From the NCBI GenBank assembly GCA_018650445.1, contig JABIFX010000084.1, forward strand, positions 17,774 to 81,773: a stretch of DNA of 64,000 nucleotides, written 5' to 3'. The DNA is from Fidelibacterota bacterium. GTDB taxonomy: Bacteria > Fidelibacterota > UBA8477 > JABMPR01. The notes below the pieces were generated by a model that was given only the letters and a program-made list of their open reading frames with translations, was not told the origin of the DNA and made no database searches. Positions within the stretch are counted from its first letter, which is position 1. Every line of letters begins with the position of its first letter. A program made the position numbers and the translations under genes. Shown here piece by piece: positions 50,127 through 59,508 of the stretch.

Positions 50127-52646
50127 ATGAAATTTTTCCGACCTCTCGTTCAAATCATATTAATGCTTTCCCTGTTTTCTGTGACACTTGCCAGACAAAA
50201 TGTACATGGATTTATTCGTGAAAATGAAACCGGTGAACCTCTACCCTATGCAAATATTATTCTCCCAGAATTAAATCGCGGTGCAACATCCAATGTGGAA
50301 GGCTATTTCGTAGTCAGTGATCTTCCCGTTGGGACCCACACACTTATTGTGTCCATTATTGGTTATTCCAAATATGAGCAGACCATTGAATTACCAGCAG
50401 ACATGAGTCTGCGACTAGATATCAGATTGGATCAGGCCATTATTGAGGGTCAGTCAATCGAAGTAAGCGCAGAGCGGGAAAAATTCAAGGAACTGGTCAG
50501 TACCAGCACGGTAACACTTGATCGTCGTGCCATTGAGGTTGCCCCATCATTCGTAGAAGCAGATGTCTTCCGTGCACTACAGTTGCTTCCTGGAGTACAA
50601 TCTCTTAATGACTTTTCTTCAGCTCTGTATGTCCGTGGTTCCACACCTGACCAAAACTTGATCATGCTTGATGGCATCACAGTCTATAATCCAATGCACC
50701 TCGGCGGCATCTTTTCAACCTTTAACACCGATGCCATCAAAGAGGCAGATTTCCATGCTGGAGGTTTCCCTGCTCAATACGGTGGACGCCTGGGTTCTAT
50801 CCTGAATATTGTGAATCGGGAAGGCAATACTGAAGAGTTGACGGGGAGCGCAAATATTTCTCTCATCTCAAGTAAAGCGTTGATTGAAGGTCCTTTACCT
50901 ACTTTTGGTTCTGATTTGCTGAAGGGATCATGGATGATTGCTGGTCGGCGTACGTACTTTGATGTCATTGCTAATGCTTTTTACAAGCAAGTCGTGTTTC
51001 CACGGCTTGACCCAGCTGACCAGAGAGGTTCACCTCAAAATGTTTTCCCTTATTATTTTTATGATTTCCAGGGCAAGGTAAATCTGGATGTGGGTAGCGA
51101 TCATCGGCTTACCTGGAGCTCATTTCATGGGGATGATGTTCTGAATTGGGATTACCAGGCTGATTATTCTTCAGATGATTGGAATGATGAGGGTTACGAA
51201 CAGGATGGCGACTACTATTATGAAGGAAGTGATAGCAGTGTGTTTGATTGGCGCTGGGGAAATTTTACCAACAGTCTGACCTGGCGTTGGATAATTTCGC
51301 CAAAATTGATCGCACGGACCTTTATCGCAAATAGTCGCTTTCGATTTGCTGTGGATTTTGACTATGCGGATGAGAGTTACTCCCGTAGCGAGTTTGACAC
51401 CTCCAGCTATCGATCTTCCTTTGGCTTTGATCTATTTGATCGCATCAATGACAACAGTCTTGAATCCAATTTAACCTGGCTGGCAAACGATGCTCACAAT
51501 GTGCTAGCAGGCTTCCAACATAAGGAGGTGCATTTCCAGTTGGGAATGATACTTGGTGCAGAGGAAACCTATAACGGGGTAAAAGAAACTTTTCGAGATA
51601 CCATTATGTGGATGGAATCCAAACCAGCAGAATCAGCCATCTACATTCAGGATCAATGGGAAATGAGTCCTCTCCTTTCCCTGCAATCGGGTTTACGTAT
51701 TGCCAGATACTCCTTGCATGACACCACTTATTTTGAACCGCGTCTTGGTCTCAAATATTTTCTTTCGGAAAAGGTTTCACTCAAGGGCTCTGTGGGTCGA
51801 TATCATCAATTTTTGACTGTGGCCAATCCCCCTGATGAGAACTTGAGGTTTCTGGATATCTGGTTTGGTATTCCTGAGGATCGTCCAGCTCCCCGATCTG
51901 ATCACTATATACTTGGGGTAGAATATTTGAGTGATTCTGATATTCTGGTTCGCACTGAAGCCTATTATAAATCGTTTGACAATCTGCTGACCCTCAAACC
52001 CACGGATCTCATTGCAATCAGCGATGAAGGTCAGTTGAGAATTGATCCCTTTAATGAATTCTGGAACACCGATGCCTATGCCCAGGGTTTAGAAATTCTG
52101 GTTAAAAAACTTTCTGGAAAAGTCCGTGGCTGGGCTGGCTATACCTATGCACAAACCAAGCGGAAGTACGGGGGTCAAAGTTGGTATTTCCCCAAATATG
52201 ACAGAACCCACACTCTCAATGTTGTTGCGGATTGGGCTCTTAATGAGACCCTTCACTTTAGTACTGCCATCACATATTCCAGTGGGAATCCATATACTGC
52301 AGTCATTGGTAGAACAGAGACATGGGAAGATGACTCATGGAATTTAGACAACTCATGGTTTAATAGAGAAAATTTTCTCTATGGCGAAAAACATGGGGTG
52401 CGCTATCCGGGATATTTCCGCTGGGATGTAAGTTTTAAAAAGCGGAAACCATTTTTAAAAGGACACCGTGAATGGTATTTCCAGATATTAAATGTGACAA
52501 ATCACTTAAATGTGTTTAGCTATCTCTATCGGAATCATGGGGACTTCAATTACAGAACATACGAGTACGAGAACAAAGGTGTGCAAAGATTTGGTATTCC
52601 CATGTTTCCATTTTTACCAACTTTTGGGGTGAAATTTGAATTCTAA
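50127..52646 (+). CDS. TonB-dependent receptor with CarboxypepD_reg-like domain
   Basis: VHGFIRENETGEPLPYANIILPELNRGATSNVEGYFVVSDLPVGTHTLIVS; ALQLLPGVQSLNDFSSALYVRGSTPDQNLIMLDGITVYNP; C-terminal VKFEF. Confidence 0.92.
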   Translation: MKFFRPLVQIILMLSLFSVTLARQNVHGFIRENETGEPLPYANIILPELNRGATSNVEGYFVVSDLPVGTHTLIVSIIGYSKYEQTIELPADMSLRLDIRLDQAIIEGQSIEVSAEREKFKELVSTSTVTLDRRAIEVAPSFVEADVFRALQLLPGVQSLNDFSSALYVRGSTPDQNLIMLDGITVYNPMHLGGIFSTFNTDAIKEADFHAGGFPAQYGGRLGSILNIVNREGNTEELTGSANISLISSKALIEGPLPTFGSDLLKGSWMIAGRRTYFDVIANAFYKQVVFPRLDPADQRGSPQNVFPYYFYDFQGKVNLDVGSDHRLTWSSFHGDDVLNWDYQADYSSDDWNDEGYEQDGDYYYEGSDSSVFDWRWGNFTNSLTWRWIISPKLIARTFIANSRFRFAVDFDYADESYSRSEFDTSSYRSSFGFDLFDRINDNSLESNLTWLANDAHNVLAGFQHKEVHFQLGMILGAEETYNGVKETFRDTIMWMESKPAESAIYIQDQWEMSPLLSLQSGLRIARYSLHDTTYFEPRLGLKYFLSEKVSLKGSVGRYHQFLTVANPPDENLRFLDIWFGIPEDRPAPRSDHYILGVEYLSDSDILVRTEAYYKSFDNLLTLKPTDLIAISDEGQLRIDPFNEFWNTDAYAQGLEILVKKLSGKVRGWAGYTYAQTKRKYGGQSWYFPKYDRTHTLNVVADWALNETLHFSTAITYSSGNPYTAVIGRTETWEDDSWNLDNSWFNRENFLYGEKHGVRYPGYFRWDVSFKKRKPFLKGHREWYFQILNVTNHLNVFSYLYRNHGDFNYRTYEYENKGVQRFGIPMFPFLPTFGVKFEF

Positions 52647-53781
52647 TATAATGAGCCCACCAATGACGGATATTGAACAAGCCAGTGCTGAAGGGGATCG
52701 TAGTATCAAAATGTCCTCTGATTATGCAAATCCCCAAACAGCTTTTACCTTCGACAGGCTCAGGCGACAGCCATCGAGGATTAATAAAAATCGTCGTCCT
52801 CTAGTAATTGTAATTTCTCTCCTTTTACTCCTTACGATTGTTTCATGTGGAAACTGGGGTTGGGAAGCCATTGACACAGACAATGAAGAAAAATTGAACA
52901 TCTTTGGGCTCATCAGTCTGGATGATTCCGTGTCCAGCTTTATTATTGTCCATAAAACCCTGGATACCGCTGGACCTGATGCAGAAATAGTAGGGTATGA
53001 TACCATCTATTACGATGCCTGGGAATGGTATAATGACGATACAGGGATGTTCGAGAGGGACACCTTCTGGTATGACCCTCCTTACATCACATCACTGAGT
53101 GAATCACTTTATATTGTGAGGGATGCAACTGTCACTGTTTCAGATGGATCGCAGACATATTCATTTATCAGGAGTCCACAAGATCGGAGTGGTCAGAATT
53201 ACTGGTATCGTGATATATTTAGTGATCCTGGCATATATCTGAATACAGATGGTAATTTTATACCCCTCCCGAATACAGAATACACTCTGACCATCACAAC
53301 TCCAGGAGGACATCATCTCAGTGGTTCCCTGACGACCCCTGCCATACCTAGAATTAGACGCAGCGATTTACCCGATACGCTTTCAATCAACAGTCTTTTT
53401 GATGTGACGTGGAACTACAATGGAGATTTTAATTCAACTATTACCACTGGATTCGCTTCACAAGATTGGGAACGTTATGTTTGCGGGATCAGCCAGTTTG
53501 GTTTGATGGAACCAGGAGATACAACCTGGACATCCTCGGTCGATTCATGGTGTCTTGAAGATAATCCTAACGAGGATGCTGTCGCCCCGATTGGCATTCG
53601 TCTACGCTATCTGGATGCTAATTACTATCGCTACTTCCTGGCTAGTGATTCCGAATTGGAAGCTATTTCCAATTTTCTCATCGGTGAAGGCAGTGTTGGC
53701 ACAGCCTATGGGGTTGAAGGTGGTTTTGGTGTATTTGGAGCTATGAGCGCTGATTGGATCAGTCGCTACGCCACACCTTAA
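52636..53781 (+). CDS. DUF4249-like lipoprotein partner of TonB receptor
   Basis: Overlaps receptor stop; hydrophobic LVIVISLLLLLTIVSCGNWGWE lipobox; YTLTITTPGGHHLSGSLTTPAIPRI. Start uncertain (52636, 52663 or 52711). Confidence 0.65.
   Translation: MNSNIMSPPMTDIEQASAEGDRSIKMSSDYANPQTAFTFDRLRRQPSRINKNRRPLVIVISLLLLLTIVSCGNWGWEAIDTDNEEKLNIFGLISLDDSVSSFIIVHKTLDTAGPDAEIVGYDTIYYDAWEWYNDDTGMFERDTFWYDPPYITSLSESLYIVRDATVTVSDGSQTYSFIRSPQDRSGQNYWYRDIFSDPGIYLNTDGNFIPLPNTEYTLTITTPGGHHLSGSLTTPAIPRIRRSDLPDTLSINSLFDVTWNYNGDFNSTITTGFASQDWERYVCGISQFGLMEPGDTTWTSSVDSWCLEDNPNEDAVAPIGIRLRYLDANYYRYFLASDSELEAISNFLIGEGSVGTAYGVEGGFGVFGAMSADWISRYATP
52748..52770 (+). repeat. REP-like motif embedded in lipoprotein N-terminus
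   Basis: CCTTCGACAGGCTCAGGCGACAG resembles the widespread CTTCGACAGGCTCAGG-type dispersed repeat; a degenerate relative CTCTTCGATAAACTCAGGGGC occurs at 59630-59650. Confidence 0.4.
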
Positions 53782-53945
53782 ACTACTTCAAATCAGGCTA
53801 AATCGATCACAACCCGTTCCTCACGATCATTCCAGTTTATATTGGGCACCAGGGGTCATTAAGCCTGAAATTCTTGTAGAATCACCTGTTATACCATCTG
53901 ATTGATGAACCAGAGGCGTTATTTTTTTCCAAATTATAGATAAAG

Positions 53946-53975
53946 CACGAGCTCCAGTGAAAACTGGAGCTCGTG
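53946..53975. terminator. 13-bp perfect hairpin between convergent genes, probable terminator
   Basis: CACGAGCTCCAGT-GAAA-ACTGGAGCTCGTG; weak flanking T-runs. Confidence 0.6.
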
Positions 53976-54016
53976 TACAGGGAGGAAATCCTCTAGCAAG
54001 GATAACGCTTATTGAC

Positions 54017-54496
54017 TTATGGCCTATTCCCTCTTCCTGGACGGTTCCCACGGCGGCCACCGCCCATATCACTATTTCTACCACGAGGTCCTCCGGGTCC
54101 ACGTCGTCCTTCACGGGGACCAAATTCATGCTGATCAAAAATCAATTGCTGATCTGGTGACAGCAGAGATCTGATCTGGGTTCGATGCGCACCCATTAGC
54201 GCTTCAACAGCTGTCCGGTTGGCTTCAATAGCCGCTTCAAGTTCGGCAATTCTATCAGCATCAGGATTTTCGCTATTATTGAGCAGTCTCAGCTCTTGCT
54301 CCATTGAACGCGTGGTTTGACGAATTTCCTGCATGGCAGGCTGCATACTCTCACGGAGGGCTGTGATCTGCTGCATCTGTTCAGTTGTTAAATTTAAGCT
54401 TTCATCCCAGGTCATTTGAGAGCCACCACCGCGGCGTCCCTGACCCATTACAATCGTCATAGAGAGTAAAATGAGAATAAATAATTTTCGCTTCAT
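54017..54496 (-). CDS. Spy/ZraP/CpxP (LTxxQ)-like periplasmic protein
   Basis: Signal peptide; LNLTTEQMQQITALRESMQPAMQEIRQTTRSMEQELRLL...LLSPDQQLIFDQ; Arg/Gly-rich tail GRRGPGGPRGRNSDMGGGRRGNRPGRGNRP. Confidence 0.78.
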   Translation of the reverse strand: MKRKLFILILLSMTIVMGQGRRGGGSQMTWDESLNLTTEQMQQITALRESMQPAMQEIRQTTRSMEQELRLLNNSENPDADRIAELEAAIEANRTAVEALMGAHRTQIRSLLSPDQQLIFDQHEFGPREGRRGPGGPRGRNSDMGGGRRGNRPGRGNRP

Positions 54497-54508
54497 GCTA
54501 CTGCTCCT

Positions 54509-55762
54509 TTAATTATTAATATTTAGAGTAATTCCATAGTTCATACTCTTATAGTCATACAGGGGATCATTGGAAATATTCTGAGTCCACCCTGTATTCA
54601 CCAGTACGTCAATATCTGAAAACCAGTCACTTTTATTCTGACCCAAATCCAGATTCCAACTCACTTGAATTTTTTGCTTTTTATCTGATCGATCAAAACC
54701 AAGATCCTTATATGCATCATTCTCAATGACATAGCTCAAACCCTCAAAGTCAAACTCATATACAGGAACATCCTTGTATTTTTTTTCGTCAAAAACATAA
54801 ATCAACTTTAATTTCTGTCTGGCACCCATTCGATATAATAAGCGCAGTGATACAGAAGGACCCTCACTCCTGAACCTGTCAATAAATGGGTTGTTTAATC
54901 CATCCTGTAAGGCCAGGGCGCTGGCATCTTCATTGATGAGGGTTTGATAGTCCAGCCAGAGTGTCGCACCGAGTTTGGGGCCAAGAGCCTGGCTGAGTCT
55001 AAGCTCGGTTTCAAAAAGATAATTATCAGGAATAGAGTCAACTTCGATTGAACGGGTAAACCGGCCTGGAAGTTGATCATCTATTACGATCTGTGGCCAA
55101 AAGTTTTGATAGGCCAGGGAGGTCCTGAGATTTACTGAGGTCTTTGTATTAAAAGACTGGTTATAGGTAAGATATATCTCATGATCTGTGTTTGAGGCTT
55201 CGGTAACCTCCTCAAAGCGATTAAAATTCAAATCATAACCACCAATAAACAGCTGGGAAGCTTTGAGGTAGTATTTCCATTTCAAATACATGCCAAAACC
55301 ACTGCTGTTGTAATAACTATAGCTATCATGGAAGCGGTTAAAATAAGCGAATAGACCTGCAAAGATCTGGTTATCCTTGATATCTAGATAGCGTAGTTGA
55401 AGACCAAGCTCTGCATCAGAATTGGAGTATTCAGCATAGGGATATATCTGTGAGTGCGAGATATCAATATATGCCCTGGAATTGTCGGAAAGAATTGAGC
55501 TGAGAGAGAATGCAGTTGAGCTATAGGAAGCATTGGGAACCAATTTACTACCCAATAGATAGTCAGCAGCCCCAAATGAATTATCAAAAGTGTAGGTAAA
55601 TTCACCAGCGGTTACTGGAAAGCTAAGCAAAGATAAGCAGATGATTACAATTGCTATGATTGCTCTGAAATTGATACGCTCTGATTTGCTTATGAACATG
55701 GTTTGATTTGAGTCTTTCATAGAAGTTGGGGGAGGAAATCTTCCTCCCCCATTATCACACAA
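54509..55762 (-). CDS. Predicted outer membrane beta-barrel protein
   Basis: Signal peptide (IIAIVIICLSLLSFPVTAGEFTYTFDNSFGAADYLLG); repeated amphipathic beta-strand pattern (LGLQLRYLDIKDNQIFAGLFAYFNRF). True start probably after the first ~16 aa. Confidence 0.65.
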   Translation of the reverse strand: MCDNGGGRFPPPTSMKDSNQTMFISKSERINFRAIIAIVIICLSLLSFPVTAGEFTYTFDNSFGAADYLLGSKLVPNASYSSTAFSLSSILSDNSRAYIDISHSQIYPYAEYSNSDAELGLQLRYLDIKDNQIFAGLFAYFNRFHDSYSYYNSSGFGMYLKWKYYLKASQLFIGGYDLNFNRFEEVTEASNTDHEIYLTYNQSFNTKTSVNLRTSLAYQNFWPQIVIDDQLPGRFTRSIEVDSIPDNYLFETELRLSQALGPKLGATLWLDYQTLINEDASALALQDGLNNPFIDRFRSEGPSVSLRLLYRMGARQKLKLIYVFDEKKYKDVPVYEFDFEGLSYVIENDAYKDLGFDRSDKKQKIQVSWNLDLGQNKSDWFSDIDVLVNTGWTQNISNDPLYDYKSMNYGITLNINN

Positions 55763-56263
55763 TTAGTTCGCGCTATTCAGTTTAACTATGGATTTGCGAT
55801 GAGGAACTGGGTCTGGGAGACAATCACCTGATCCAGGTCCATTACCACCTCTACCTCCACGACCACCTCTGCCTCCACGGCCATCTTCTGGTCTCACGTA
55901 ATCTTCATCAGCATAATTCGGGATACCATCGCCATCATCATCGGGTGCATTATCATTGTAGCCATCACCGTCTTCATCGATGAAATCACCATGTCCAGGA
56001 CCGCCTCTGCCTCCAAGGCCATCTTCTGGTCTCACGTAATCTTCATCAGCATAGTTTGGGATACCATCGCCATCATCATCGGGTGCATTATCATTGTAGC
56101 CATCACCGTCTTCATCGATGAAATCACCAGAGCCATTGCCACCGCCACCGAAACCACCATGACCATTTCCCCACTGACCACCCTGTGCATAAACTGGGCT
56201 GGCAATTGCGAATAAGCTAATTGCTACTGCCATCATCATCACCGTTAAGAGTTGCTTTTTCAT
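55763..56263 (-). CDS. Secreted Asp/Gly-rich Ca-binding-like repeat protein (thrombospondin type 3-like)
   Basis: Signal peptide; two copies of GDFIDEDGDGYNDNAPDDDGDGIPNYADEDYVRPEDG, then GRGGRGGRGGRGGNG. Confidence 0.8.
   Translation of the reverse strand: MKKQLLTVMMMAVAISLFAIASPVYAQGGQWGNGHGGFGGGGNGSGDFIDEDGDGYNDNAPDDDGDGIPNYADEDYVRPEDGLGGRGGPGHGDFIDEDGDGYNDNAPDDDGDGIPNYADEDYVRPEDGRGGRGGRGGRGGNGPGSGDCLPDPVPHRKSIVKLNSAN
55866..56131. repeat. Tandem duplication with 138-bp period (46 codons)
   Basis: ggccatcttctggtctcacgtaatcttcatcagcata[attc/gttt]gggataccatcgcc... repeated at 55879 and 56017 with very few differences. Confidence 0.9.
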
Positions 56264-56314
56264 ATCGTTTCTCCTTTGTTATTGTTTCTGTTTCAAAAAA
56301 GCTGCCCTCTATAG

Positions 56315-56330
56315 TCCAATCTCTGTGCCA
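56315..56330 (-). promoter_or_regulatory. Candidate sigma54 (-24/-12) promoter
   Basis: Minus strand TGGCAC-AGAGA-TTGGA vs consensus TGGCAC-N5-TTGCW; about 50 nt upstream of the 56263 start codon. Confidence 0.6.
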
Positions 56331-56419
56331 GTTATTACGCCTCGCTCAATAATGTTACATATATTATTGTAATTCATATACTTATCGATATATATATTGA
56401 TTAATTGATTGTGAACAGG

Positions 56420-56456
56420 CTCGACAAAACACGTCGAATTCGACAAAATTGTCGAG
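56420..56456. promoter_or_regulatory. Paired palindromes, candidate activator (UAS) sites
   Basis: CTCGACAAAACACGTCGAATTCGACAAAATTGTCGAG: site 1 TCGAC-N7-GTCGA (56421-56437), site 2 TCGACAA-AA-TTGTCGA (56440-56455). Confidence 0.6.
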
Positions 56457-56467
56457 AATATTGATGA

Positions 56468-57799
56468 TTATTTCAGGTGGTATTTTTGAAGCTTGTAGCG
56501 GAGAACTCGCTCGCTGATGCCCAGCCGTCGGGCACATTCACTCTGGTTGCCTCCTGCTTCATGCAGGGTATTTTTTATCAGATCTACTTCCAGACCACCA
56601 ACAGAATCTTTCAGTTTCCCTGAAGCGATATTCTCTCCAGCCTTATCCTGCAGGTTGAGTCCTTCAACTAAAATCTCAGGTCCCTGACATAGCAGGACGG
56701 CGCGTTCAAGGATATTTCCCAGTTCGCGGACATTCCCGGGGAAATGATATGTCTCCAGCGCTGCAAGCGCTTTACTCGAAAGAATCATTTCAGATCGACC
56801 TTCCCTGACAGCAAATTTATCAAGAAAATATTCTGACAAAACCTTGATATCATCAGGTCTGCTTCTCAGGGGTGGTATCTCAAGATTTATCACATTTAAA
56901 CGATAATAGAGATCTTCCCTAAACTCTCCCAACTCAATGGCGTGGAGCAAATCCACATTGGTAGCAGCTATCACCCGGACATCTGATTTGAAGACTTTGT
57001 TCTCCCCAATCCTTTGAAACTCACCACTCTGTAGAAAGCGCAATAGATTGGTTTGCATCTCAAGTGGAAGATCACCAATCTCATCCAGAAATAGGGTTCC
57101 TGTATGGGCTTCCTCAAAGCGACCCATTCTGGTCGCGGTTGCACCTGTGAAAGCGCCTTTCTCATGACCAAACAGTTCACTCTCAATCAAATGGCTGGGA
57201 AGAGCTGCGCAGTTCACTGCTACCATGGGCTGTTTACCCCGAGGGGAATGCTGATGTATATACTCGGCAAGAACTTCCTTGCCTACGCCAGTTTCTCCCG
57301 TGATGAGGACAGTGACCTGGCTGTCAGCCACACGCTTCGCCTGTTGGAGTAAACCTAACATGACTGGATCTCTGGCCAGAAAACCCATCTCTTCTGAACC
57401 TTGTTCCCGGGAAATATTTTGTGGATTTTGTGAGGTATGAATGTGATCCTCGATGCCCTTGAGCAGAATTTCAAGCTGATCCAGATTAACGGGTTTGGTT
57501 AAGAAATCCCAGGCACCTGATTTCATGGCATCTACGGCAATATCCACAGTGCCGAAAGCAGTGATCAAAACCAGAATCACATTAGGATGACGTGATTTTA
57601 CTTCTTTTAAAAGATCAACACCTGTCATATAGGGCATTTTGTAATCAGACAAAACAATGTCAACTGGATGCTTATGCAAATGGGCCAGTGCAGTTTGAGC
57701 AGACTCAGCTGTGCCAACATCATATCCAATTTTCTTTAGAAATCCAGCCAGAGACTCACGCTGGATTTGCTCATCATCGACGATTAGTATTCTGGTCAT
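56468..57799 (-). CDS. Sigma54-dependent NtrC-family response regulator
   Basis: Receiver ([26 protein letters not shown]), [49 protein letters not shown]-terminal Fis HTH ([23 protein letters not shown]). Confidence 0.95.
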
Positions 57800-59508
57800 T
57801 GTTTCACCGGTAATTCAATTTCGAAGGTTGTCCCTTCATCAAGTTGACTTGTCACTTCAATCGTTCCGTGGTGGTCTGCGATTATTTTATGCGTCAATGC
57901 CAGTCCCACACCTGTACCCATGTCCTTGGTTGTATAATACAAATCAAAAATACGACTGAGCTGATCCTCAGCAATTCCAGTTCCTGTATCAATGATCTTT
58001 ATAATTATCATTTCACCTTTTTTCTGACCTTCCAGATTTATACTCGCTCCGGAATCACAGGCATCCAAAGCGTTTCGAACCAGGTTAGATATTGCCTGTC
58101 TCAAATATCCTGCGTCTGCATCAAATTCAAGCGAATTGGCCTGCACTGACAGCGATATCTGTTGGTTTATGGCTTCCGATTTATACAAATCCTGGATGCT
58201 GTTTAAAAAACTCATCAGATCGAGAGTTGAGAAATTGAGGGGGGTCGGTCTGGTGTATTCCAGAAAATCCTGGAGAGATTCATTTATTCGTGATATTTCT
58301 GAGACCATGGTGCCAGTGAGCGATTCATATTCCTGCTGATCTTCACCAGTTGAGAATTCGCGCTTCAACCGTTGGGCAACAATTCCTATAGCATTGAGCG
58401 GATTGCGTATTTCATGGGCGACACCAGCAGCGAGTTCACCCACAGCCGCCTGCTTTTCTCGAAGTCGATTCAATTTCTCCAATCTATAGACTTCTGCTTC
58501 TATGCGCTTCTTCTCCTCCTCGAGTAAAGCTGCATTTCGTCGAACCAACAGAAATATAAGTAGCACAAATGCCAGCATCGTAAAGAGTGTAGTACGAATA
58601 AGAATTTGATAGACGATTTGTCCTTTTAGACTCAATAATGTATCCGCTTTTAGCCCAATGCGAACTTCTCCCAAGCTTGAGTTAAAAAATACAGGACGAA
58701 CCACTTCCAGCAAACTGCTGTCTCCTTTGGAAACTTTAAAGAGGATATCAGCAAGGGGTTCACGGGTCCAGGTATCGTCAACCATTTCACTAGACTTTGA
58801 GACATAGTATGGTTCACGGTTATCCAGGGCAAGCTGCAGATATTGCAAGCCATTGACATGCAGAAGGTCTTCCAGAGCAGATTCCATGGCTGTGAGATAT
58901 TTAAAATTTTGCTCAGCCTCCATTGACAACTGACAGGCGATTACACCACCCCTGTCTCTGGGAATAGCTACCATAAATTGATCTTCAATACTGTCCTGAG
59001 GGGTGTAAGGGTACTCCGCCTGATCAACCCCGATAATGATTAGTTCAGATTTCATGAATAAAATCGGCTGTAACTGATTCTGGATCCAGGTATTGTCTTG
59101 CTCTAATTCAGCCCCAGTATTTTTTGAAGCTACTCTGGAGTCGGCATCCTTATTCCCTTTACGATCATAGGTGGTGATATCCATGATGGTTTCATCATTC
59201 ACCCATTCGTCCAGATCACTTCCTGTTAATTCCTGTTCTTTATCTATTTGGTTCAAGATACTGAGCATATCTATGGCTCTATCGATATAGGATTGTTTTA
59301 ACTCCTCGGTGAGATAGGCCTGACCACTACCACTCTGGGCAATAACAGCGGCGGTCATGGCTGCCTGATCCTGAATGAGCTGCAGAACGTCACGATATCT
59401 GGATTTATACTCGAGATAACTTGATAAAATGAGTAAGGTGAGAACAACAATATACAACCCGATGTACCAAGGATTCAATTTTAAGATGTTTTTAACAGCT
59501 CTCAGCAA
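57796..59508 (-). CDS. Membrane sensor histidine kinase (NtrB/ZraS-like)
   Basis: Two TM segments flanking a periplasmic domain; AVGELAAGVAHEIRNPLNAIG H-box; NLVRNALDAC; DTGTGIAEDQLSRIFDLYYTTKDMGTGVGLALTHKI. ATGA overlap with regulator. Confidence 0.94.
   Translation of the reverse strand: MLRAVKNILKLNPWYIGLYIVVLTLLILSSYLEYKSRYRDVLQLIQDQAAMTAAVIAQSGSGQAYLTEELKQSYIDRAIDMLSILNQIDKEQELTGSDLDEWVNDETIMDITTYDRKGNKDADSRVASKNTGAELEQDNTWIQNQLQPILFMKSELIIIGVDQAEYPYTPQDSIEDQFMVAIPRDRGGVIACQLSMEAEQNFKYLTAMESALEDLLHVNGLQYLQLALDNREPYYVSKSSEMVDDTWTREPLADILFKVSKGDSSLLEVVRPVFFNSSLGEVRIGLKADTLLSLKGQIVYQILIRTTLFTMLAFVLLIFLLVRRNAALLEEEKKRIEAEVYRLEKLNRLREKQAAVGELAAGVAHEIRNPLNAIGIVAQRLKREFSTGEDQQEYESLTGTMVSEISRINESLQDFLEYTRPTPLNFSTLDLMSFLNSIQDLYKSEAINQQISLSVQANSLEFDADAGYLRQAISNLVRNALDACDSGASINLEGQKKGEMIIIKIIDTGTGIAEDQLSRIFDLYYTTKDMGTGVGLALTHKIIADHHGTIEVTSQLDEGTTFEIELPVKQ

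Follow-up and report, generated by a model that had tools for sequence, protein, structure and literature searches.

Does the two-component system that adjoins three genes for secreted proteins in a Marinimicrobia genome form a regulon with them, and, if so, is that regulon another ZraPSR system or one of its own kind? Marinimicrobia are widespread, mostly uncultured bacteria, and to our knowledge almost no regulation has been experimentally defined in them. The locus lies in a stretch of 64,000 nucleotides, analysed as a whole and referred to as the window, where all five genes (kinase, regulator, C, B and A) are found on the minus strand (Table 1).

Table 1. Genes and predicted regulatory elements of the locus (positions in the window)
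Feature	Position	Strand	Characteristics
Sensor histidine kinase	57796..59508	(-)	570 aa, TTG start; HisKA 4.4e-12, HATPase_c 8.7e-24 (Pfam)
NtrC-type response regulator	56468..57799	(-)	443 aa; Response_reg 1e-28, Sigma54_activat 5.9e-72, HTH_8 7.3e-13 (Pfam)
Dyad 1, candidate upstream activating, TCGACAATTTTGTCGA	56440..56455	(-)	Sole exact TCGACA-N(2-5)-TGTCGA in own genome; kept 5' of C phylum-wide
Dyad 2, candidate upstream activating, degenerate, TCGACGTGTTTTGTCGA	56421..56437	(-)	Second dyad also in several relatives, including divergent family f2
Predicted -24/-12 promoter, TGGCACAGAGATTGGAC	56314..56330	(-)	TGGCAY-N5-TTG 5' of C in nearly all scanned loci
Gene C, secreted acidic protein	55763..56263	(-)	166 aa; two FIDEDGDGYNDNAPDDDGDGIPN blocks, paired Asp-rich Ca-type loops
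Stem-loop immediately 3' of C stop codon	55727..55751	(-)	Folded stretch -22 kcal/mol, z -4.25
Gene B, probable outer-membrane beta-barrel	54509..55720	(-)	403 aa from likely ATG; TTG alternative at 55762; start by alignment with relatives
Gene A, Spy/CpxP/ZraP-superfamily periplasmic protein	54017..54496	(-)	159 aa; LTXXQ and Metal_resist above cut-off

Gene content and conservation of the locus

The sequence-only reading of this DNA had described a kinase and a regulator gene overlapping by ATGA, paired palindromes shortly past the regulator, a -24/-12-like promoter and three tightly packed genes behind it. The ATGA is present at 57796-57799, the palindromes begin about 12 bp beyond the regulator stop at 56468, and the promoter is found as TGGCACAGAGATTGGAC, in a combination with the dyad that is kept throughout the phylum. 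The tight packing held for B and A, which are separated by 12 bp, but not for C and B, where a gap of 1 bp results only with the TTG start. Since the relatives at L030-L032 start B at an ATG equivalent to 55720, this ATG rather than the TTG at 55762 is probably the start of B, and the C-B gap is then 42 bp.

The kinase comprises an N-terminal transmembrane segment, a probable periplasmic sensor of about 270 residues, a second transmembrane segment and the HisKA and HATPase_c domains; its AlphaFold2 model, made from an alignment of close relatives only, has a pLDDT of 47, too low for use. The regulator has the domains of NtrC-type sigma54 activators, i.e. a receiver, an AAA+ sigma54-interaction domain with GAFTGA read in the translation, and a Fis-type HTH. 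A sigma54 two-component circuit had been proposed, and the absence of rpoN had been named beforehand as grounds for rejecting it; the gene is present in the own genome and, together with the Sigma54_activat match (5.9e-72), upholds the proposal. Beside rpoN, the sequence also shows a -24/-12 target preceded by an enhancer dyad.

The order kinase-regulator-C-B-A, whose conservation in related genomes had been suggested as a check, is intact in same-genus contigs spanning the locus, mostly beside atpD-atpC. Synteny, whose lack beyond this genome had likewise been named as grounds for rejection, extends beyond the genus too, as C-B pairs recur in other Marinimicrobia families, mostly adjoining the same regulator. 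The arrangement varies among families: in f2 the kinase and regulator genes are oriented divergently to C-B-A, at L090 and L091 they are placed after B, and the f9 and f13 loci have a further gene, C', inserted between C and B and lack an adjoining Spy gene. Sequence search matched B in 23 of 60 relatives, profile search in 40 of the 245 genomes of the phylum, and a scan of genome contigs with peptide patterns of close relatives gave Marinimicrobia only.

Several neighbouring genes were also recorded. A TonB-dependent receptor and a DUF4249 protein (window 50127-53781, plus strand) are kept beside the cassette in the genus. In many same-genus genomes the gene after spy encodes a protein of 642 aa that resembles multihaem cytochromes and has a T9SS-type match at its C-terminus (L031 5873-7801 and equivalents). 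Such a gene is missing from window positions 53781-54017, and a DAHP synthase gene occupies the place in L041; the cytochrome was therefore rejected as a member of the cassette.

The composite regulatory site and its predicted targets

Upstream of C, the dyad TCGACA-N4-TGTCGA is positioned about 87-122 bp 5' of the promoter TGGCAY-N5-TTG, and in nearly all loci scanned dyads of this type, followed by the same promoter, precede C. As the present locus has the only copy of the dyad core in the 3.9-Mb own genome and the composite is conserved phylum-wide, dyad and promoter together are, on sequence grounds, more than a chance occurrence. For the search the composite was defined as a dyad and a promoter 86-116 or 117-147 bp apart; it was listed at 35 places in the phylum, 34 of them distinct (two overlap in G022), against 1 control hit. 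Every composite site precedes a gene of the C, Spy or porin type. Within the cassettes this is C itself and in G237 an additional C paralogue; G019 and G011 have the site before spy, and four same-genus genomes (G011, G016, G014 and G001) have it before a porin-like gene whose Porin_4 match (E 5.7e-4) is below its cut-off. The regulatory DNA site linked to envelope genes, which had been read from one locus, is thus found across the phylum, and the 34 distinct sites against 1 control hit, all before genes of these three types, strongly support a dedicated regulon. The most telling case is G019, where no spy gene is linked to the cassette and yet the unlinked spy bears the composite site. In family f2, furthermore, the site remains with C despite the divergent kinase-regulator pair, and the intergenic region common to the pair and C contains the dyads of C.

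Some observations count against the regulon. The -12 element is TTGG in the window and TTGG, TTGA or TTGT in the set, as against the canonical TTGC; a lineage-specific -12 element was considered and rejected, because the own genome has canonical TTGC before flagellin and TTGA or TTGT before other genes. Moreover, the locus L050 (G043) contains C, C' and B without adjoining regulator genes and without a recognisable dyad. This C-B pair without a kinase or regulator beside it would be expected if C-B-A were an operon for secretion or a surface layer in its own right and the two-component system a bystander. Against such a bystander role, the dyad accompanies C, Spy and porin genes with or without an adjacent regulator, regulator and C-B occur together in most families, and G005, a genome of the same genus in which B was not hit, likewise lacks a close regulator orthologue (best 41% identity; the orthologue in G014 has 73% and a fragment in G006 81%). 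A bystander role is thus highly improbable. At several loci (e.g. L051, L086, L087, L089 and L092) the contig ends just upstream, and the absence of a regulator there means little.

Some further details of these sites deserve mention. In the own genome, two stacked canonical TGGCAY-N5-TTGC sites lie 5' of the flagellin gene (L151). Upstream of C at L045 and L047 (f2), a TGGCAC is seen just 3' of the dyads, its -12-like GC lying nearer by one base than the spacing requires. The second spy of G011, which carries a composite site, is directly followed by a gene for a DUF2202 protein (2e-58; L127 6470-7147). An alternative dyad pattern, TTGTCGA-N(8-20)-TCGACAA, had the wrong geometry and gave no matches.

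Taken together, the sequence comparisons indicate that the locus is probably a dedicated envelope-response regulon, running from the kinase through the regulator, the dyads and the sigma54 promoter to C, B and A. The kinase would sense a periplasmic condition, possibly divalent cations or envelope damage, and phosphorylate its NtrC-type partner. The latter would then activate sigma54 RNA polymerase at TGGCAC-N5-TTG from about 105 bp upstream, where it would occupy a single TCGACA-N4-TGTCGA dyad or a pair of them, and C would be transcribed first and probably most. In this group of bacteria a regulon would thereby become readable from its DNA, in which a single regulator would act through one conserved enhancer-promoter architecture on a handful of envelope targets, and this architecture picks out even an unlinked spy gene.

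The secreted proteins C, B and A

The C protein is strongly acidic (calculated pI 4.1). Among 24 homologues it has 18 invariant columns, 15 of which fall within the block of two Asp-rich loops. It has no accepted Pfam family, TSP3_bac (PF18884) reaching 13.3 bits against a gathering cut-off of 25. With bacterial TSP3 repeat and calcium-loop proteins it has in common the DxDGDGxxD spacing and invariant Asp, Gly and Asn positions; unlike TSP3 proteins, it keeps a longer block, FIDxDGDGxNDxAPDxDGDGIPNxxDxD, within Gly-rich linkers. C would be a secreted protein with calcium-type loops that may bind calcium.

Directly 3' of the stop codon of C, a hairpin of -20 to -31 kcal/mol (z -2.8 to -7.5) was found in all 20 of the 20 loci folded, and its sequences differ widely between families. 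In the window the stem-loop fills the 42-bp C-B gap, and at L049 a T-run comes after the hairpin, as in an intrinsic terminator. The hairpin would reduce read-through or shield the C transcript, and B and A may consequently be made in smaller amounts. Between hairpin and barrel gene, an ORF of about 40-65 codons occurs at L039 (9200-9461), L040, L042, L043, L084 (4719-4979) and L096; these small ORFs resemble one another in sequence, and the window has none. At L051 (408-980) and L087 (9067-9642) the C protein extends without a break into a helical region of the LTEEQ type and may be a C-Spy fusion, although the LTXXQ match of this region at L051 is below cut-off. C', a second Asp-rich protein, is also secreted, carries the motif DxDGDGxND in repeats, and is encoded directly 5' of the barrel in f9, f12 and f13 loci without an adjacent Spy (L048 4351-4947, L050 5404-5991, L088, L089, L093 and L094).

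B is probably an outer-membrane beta-barrel. Its hydrophobic periodicity at lag 2 (z 2.9) fits amphipathic strands and is absent from the kinase, used as control. No family match was obtained in Pfam, porin families included, and profile search of the PDB gave nothing credible; the AlphaFold2 model, from an alignment of close relatives only, has a pLDDT of 28, again too low for use.

The search for a Spy/LTXXQ domain that the sequence-only reading had called for placed A above the Pfam cut-offs, with PF07813 LTXXQ at 2e-11 (44.9 bits against a gathering score of 24.3) and PF13801 Metal_resist at 4.2e-9. It therefore matches the Spy/CpxP/ZraP superfamily, but scores far below the cut-offs of the ZraP, Spy and CpxP equivalog models (ZraP 16 bits against 200) and differs in its basic, Arg/Gly-rich tail and in being encoded near an Asp-rich secreted partner. 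As a probable Spy-type chaperone, A would escort C or feed back on the kinase; it is not essential to the module, since in several families Spy is absent and C' present.

C and B are probably functional partners, with the barrel exporting or anchoring C or being modulated by it. One tentative proposal, somewhat unlikely, is that they constitute an undescribed two-partner surface system of Marinimicrobia, in which a calcium-folding acidic protein would be exported or anchored by its own barrel, with a cationic Spy-like escort and a dedicated sigma54 two-component switch. The same circuit may instead tune outer-membrane permeability rather than secretion, in which case B would be a porin selective for cations and C would buffer cations in soluble form or act as a plug. 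The acidity of C and the composite site before the porin-like gene in four genomes are in keeping with this, whereas the missing porin family match of B speaks against it; it is a serious possibility, if not a probable one. The analysis brings forward an unassigned family of probable barrels together with its likely partner; both become testable in a laboratory host.

Relation to ZraPSR and other known systems

Sigma54 regulation of exterior and envelope functions is a general theme in bacteria (Francke et al. 2011, PMC3162934), and the present locus has this envelope theme in common with it; no paper describing a system with this gene set and site was found in the literature searched.

The closest likeness is to ZraPSR of E. 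coli, with a kinase and a sigma54-dependent NtrC-type regulator, a Spy/CpxP-superfamily periplasmic target and a small dedicated target set. Were the locus a strict orthologue, it would be zinc-responsive, with a Spy-like protein that binds zinc and represses the kinase. The kinase core does score best against ZraS among NCBIfam models (residues 285-569), the regulator falls among AtoC/NtrC/ZraR-like proteins, and an LTXXQ protein is present; the equivalog scores, however, are far under the cut-offs for ZraS (193 against 479 bits) and ZraR (377 against 760 bits), as for ZraP. E. coli ZraR directly controls both zraP and zraSR (PMC7657598), whereas neither a UAS nor a -24/-12 site was found 5' of the kinase within the window, giving no sign of such autoregulation, and outside family f2 no composite-type site was found upstream of the kinase operon. 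A has two histidines only, the genes are co-directional in the window and divergent only in f2, and the main effectors, C and B, are both missing from ZraPSR, C being the first and most invariant of them. With the equivalog cut-offs unreached and no autoregulatory site before the kinase, strict ZraPSR membership is improbable. Of the ZraPSR-like circuit proposed earlier, the sigma54 two-component system with a Spy-type protein therefore stands; judged from its sequence, the locus is a new variant of the ZraPSR-like envelope response.
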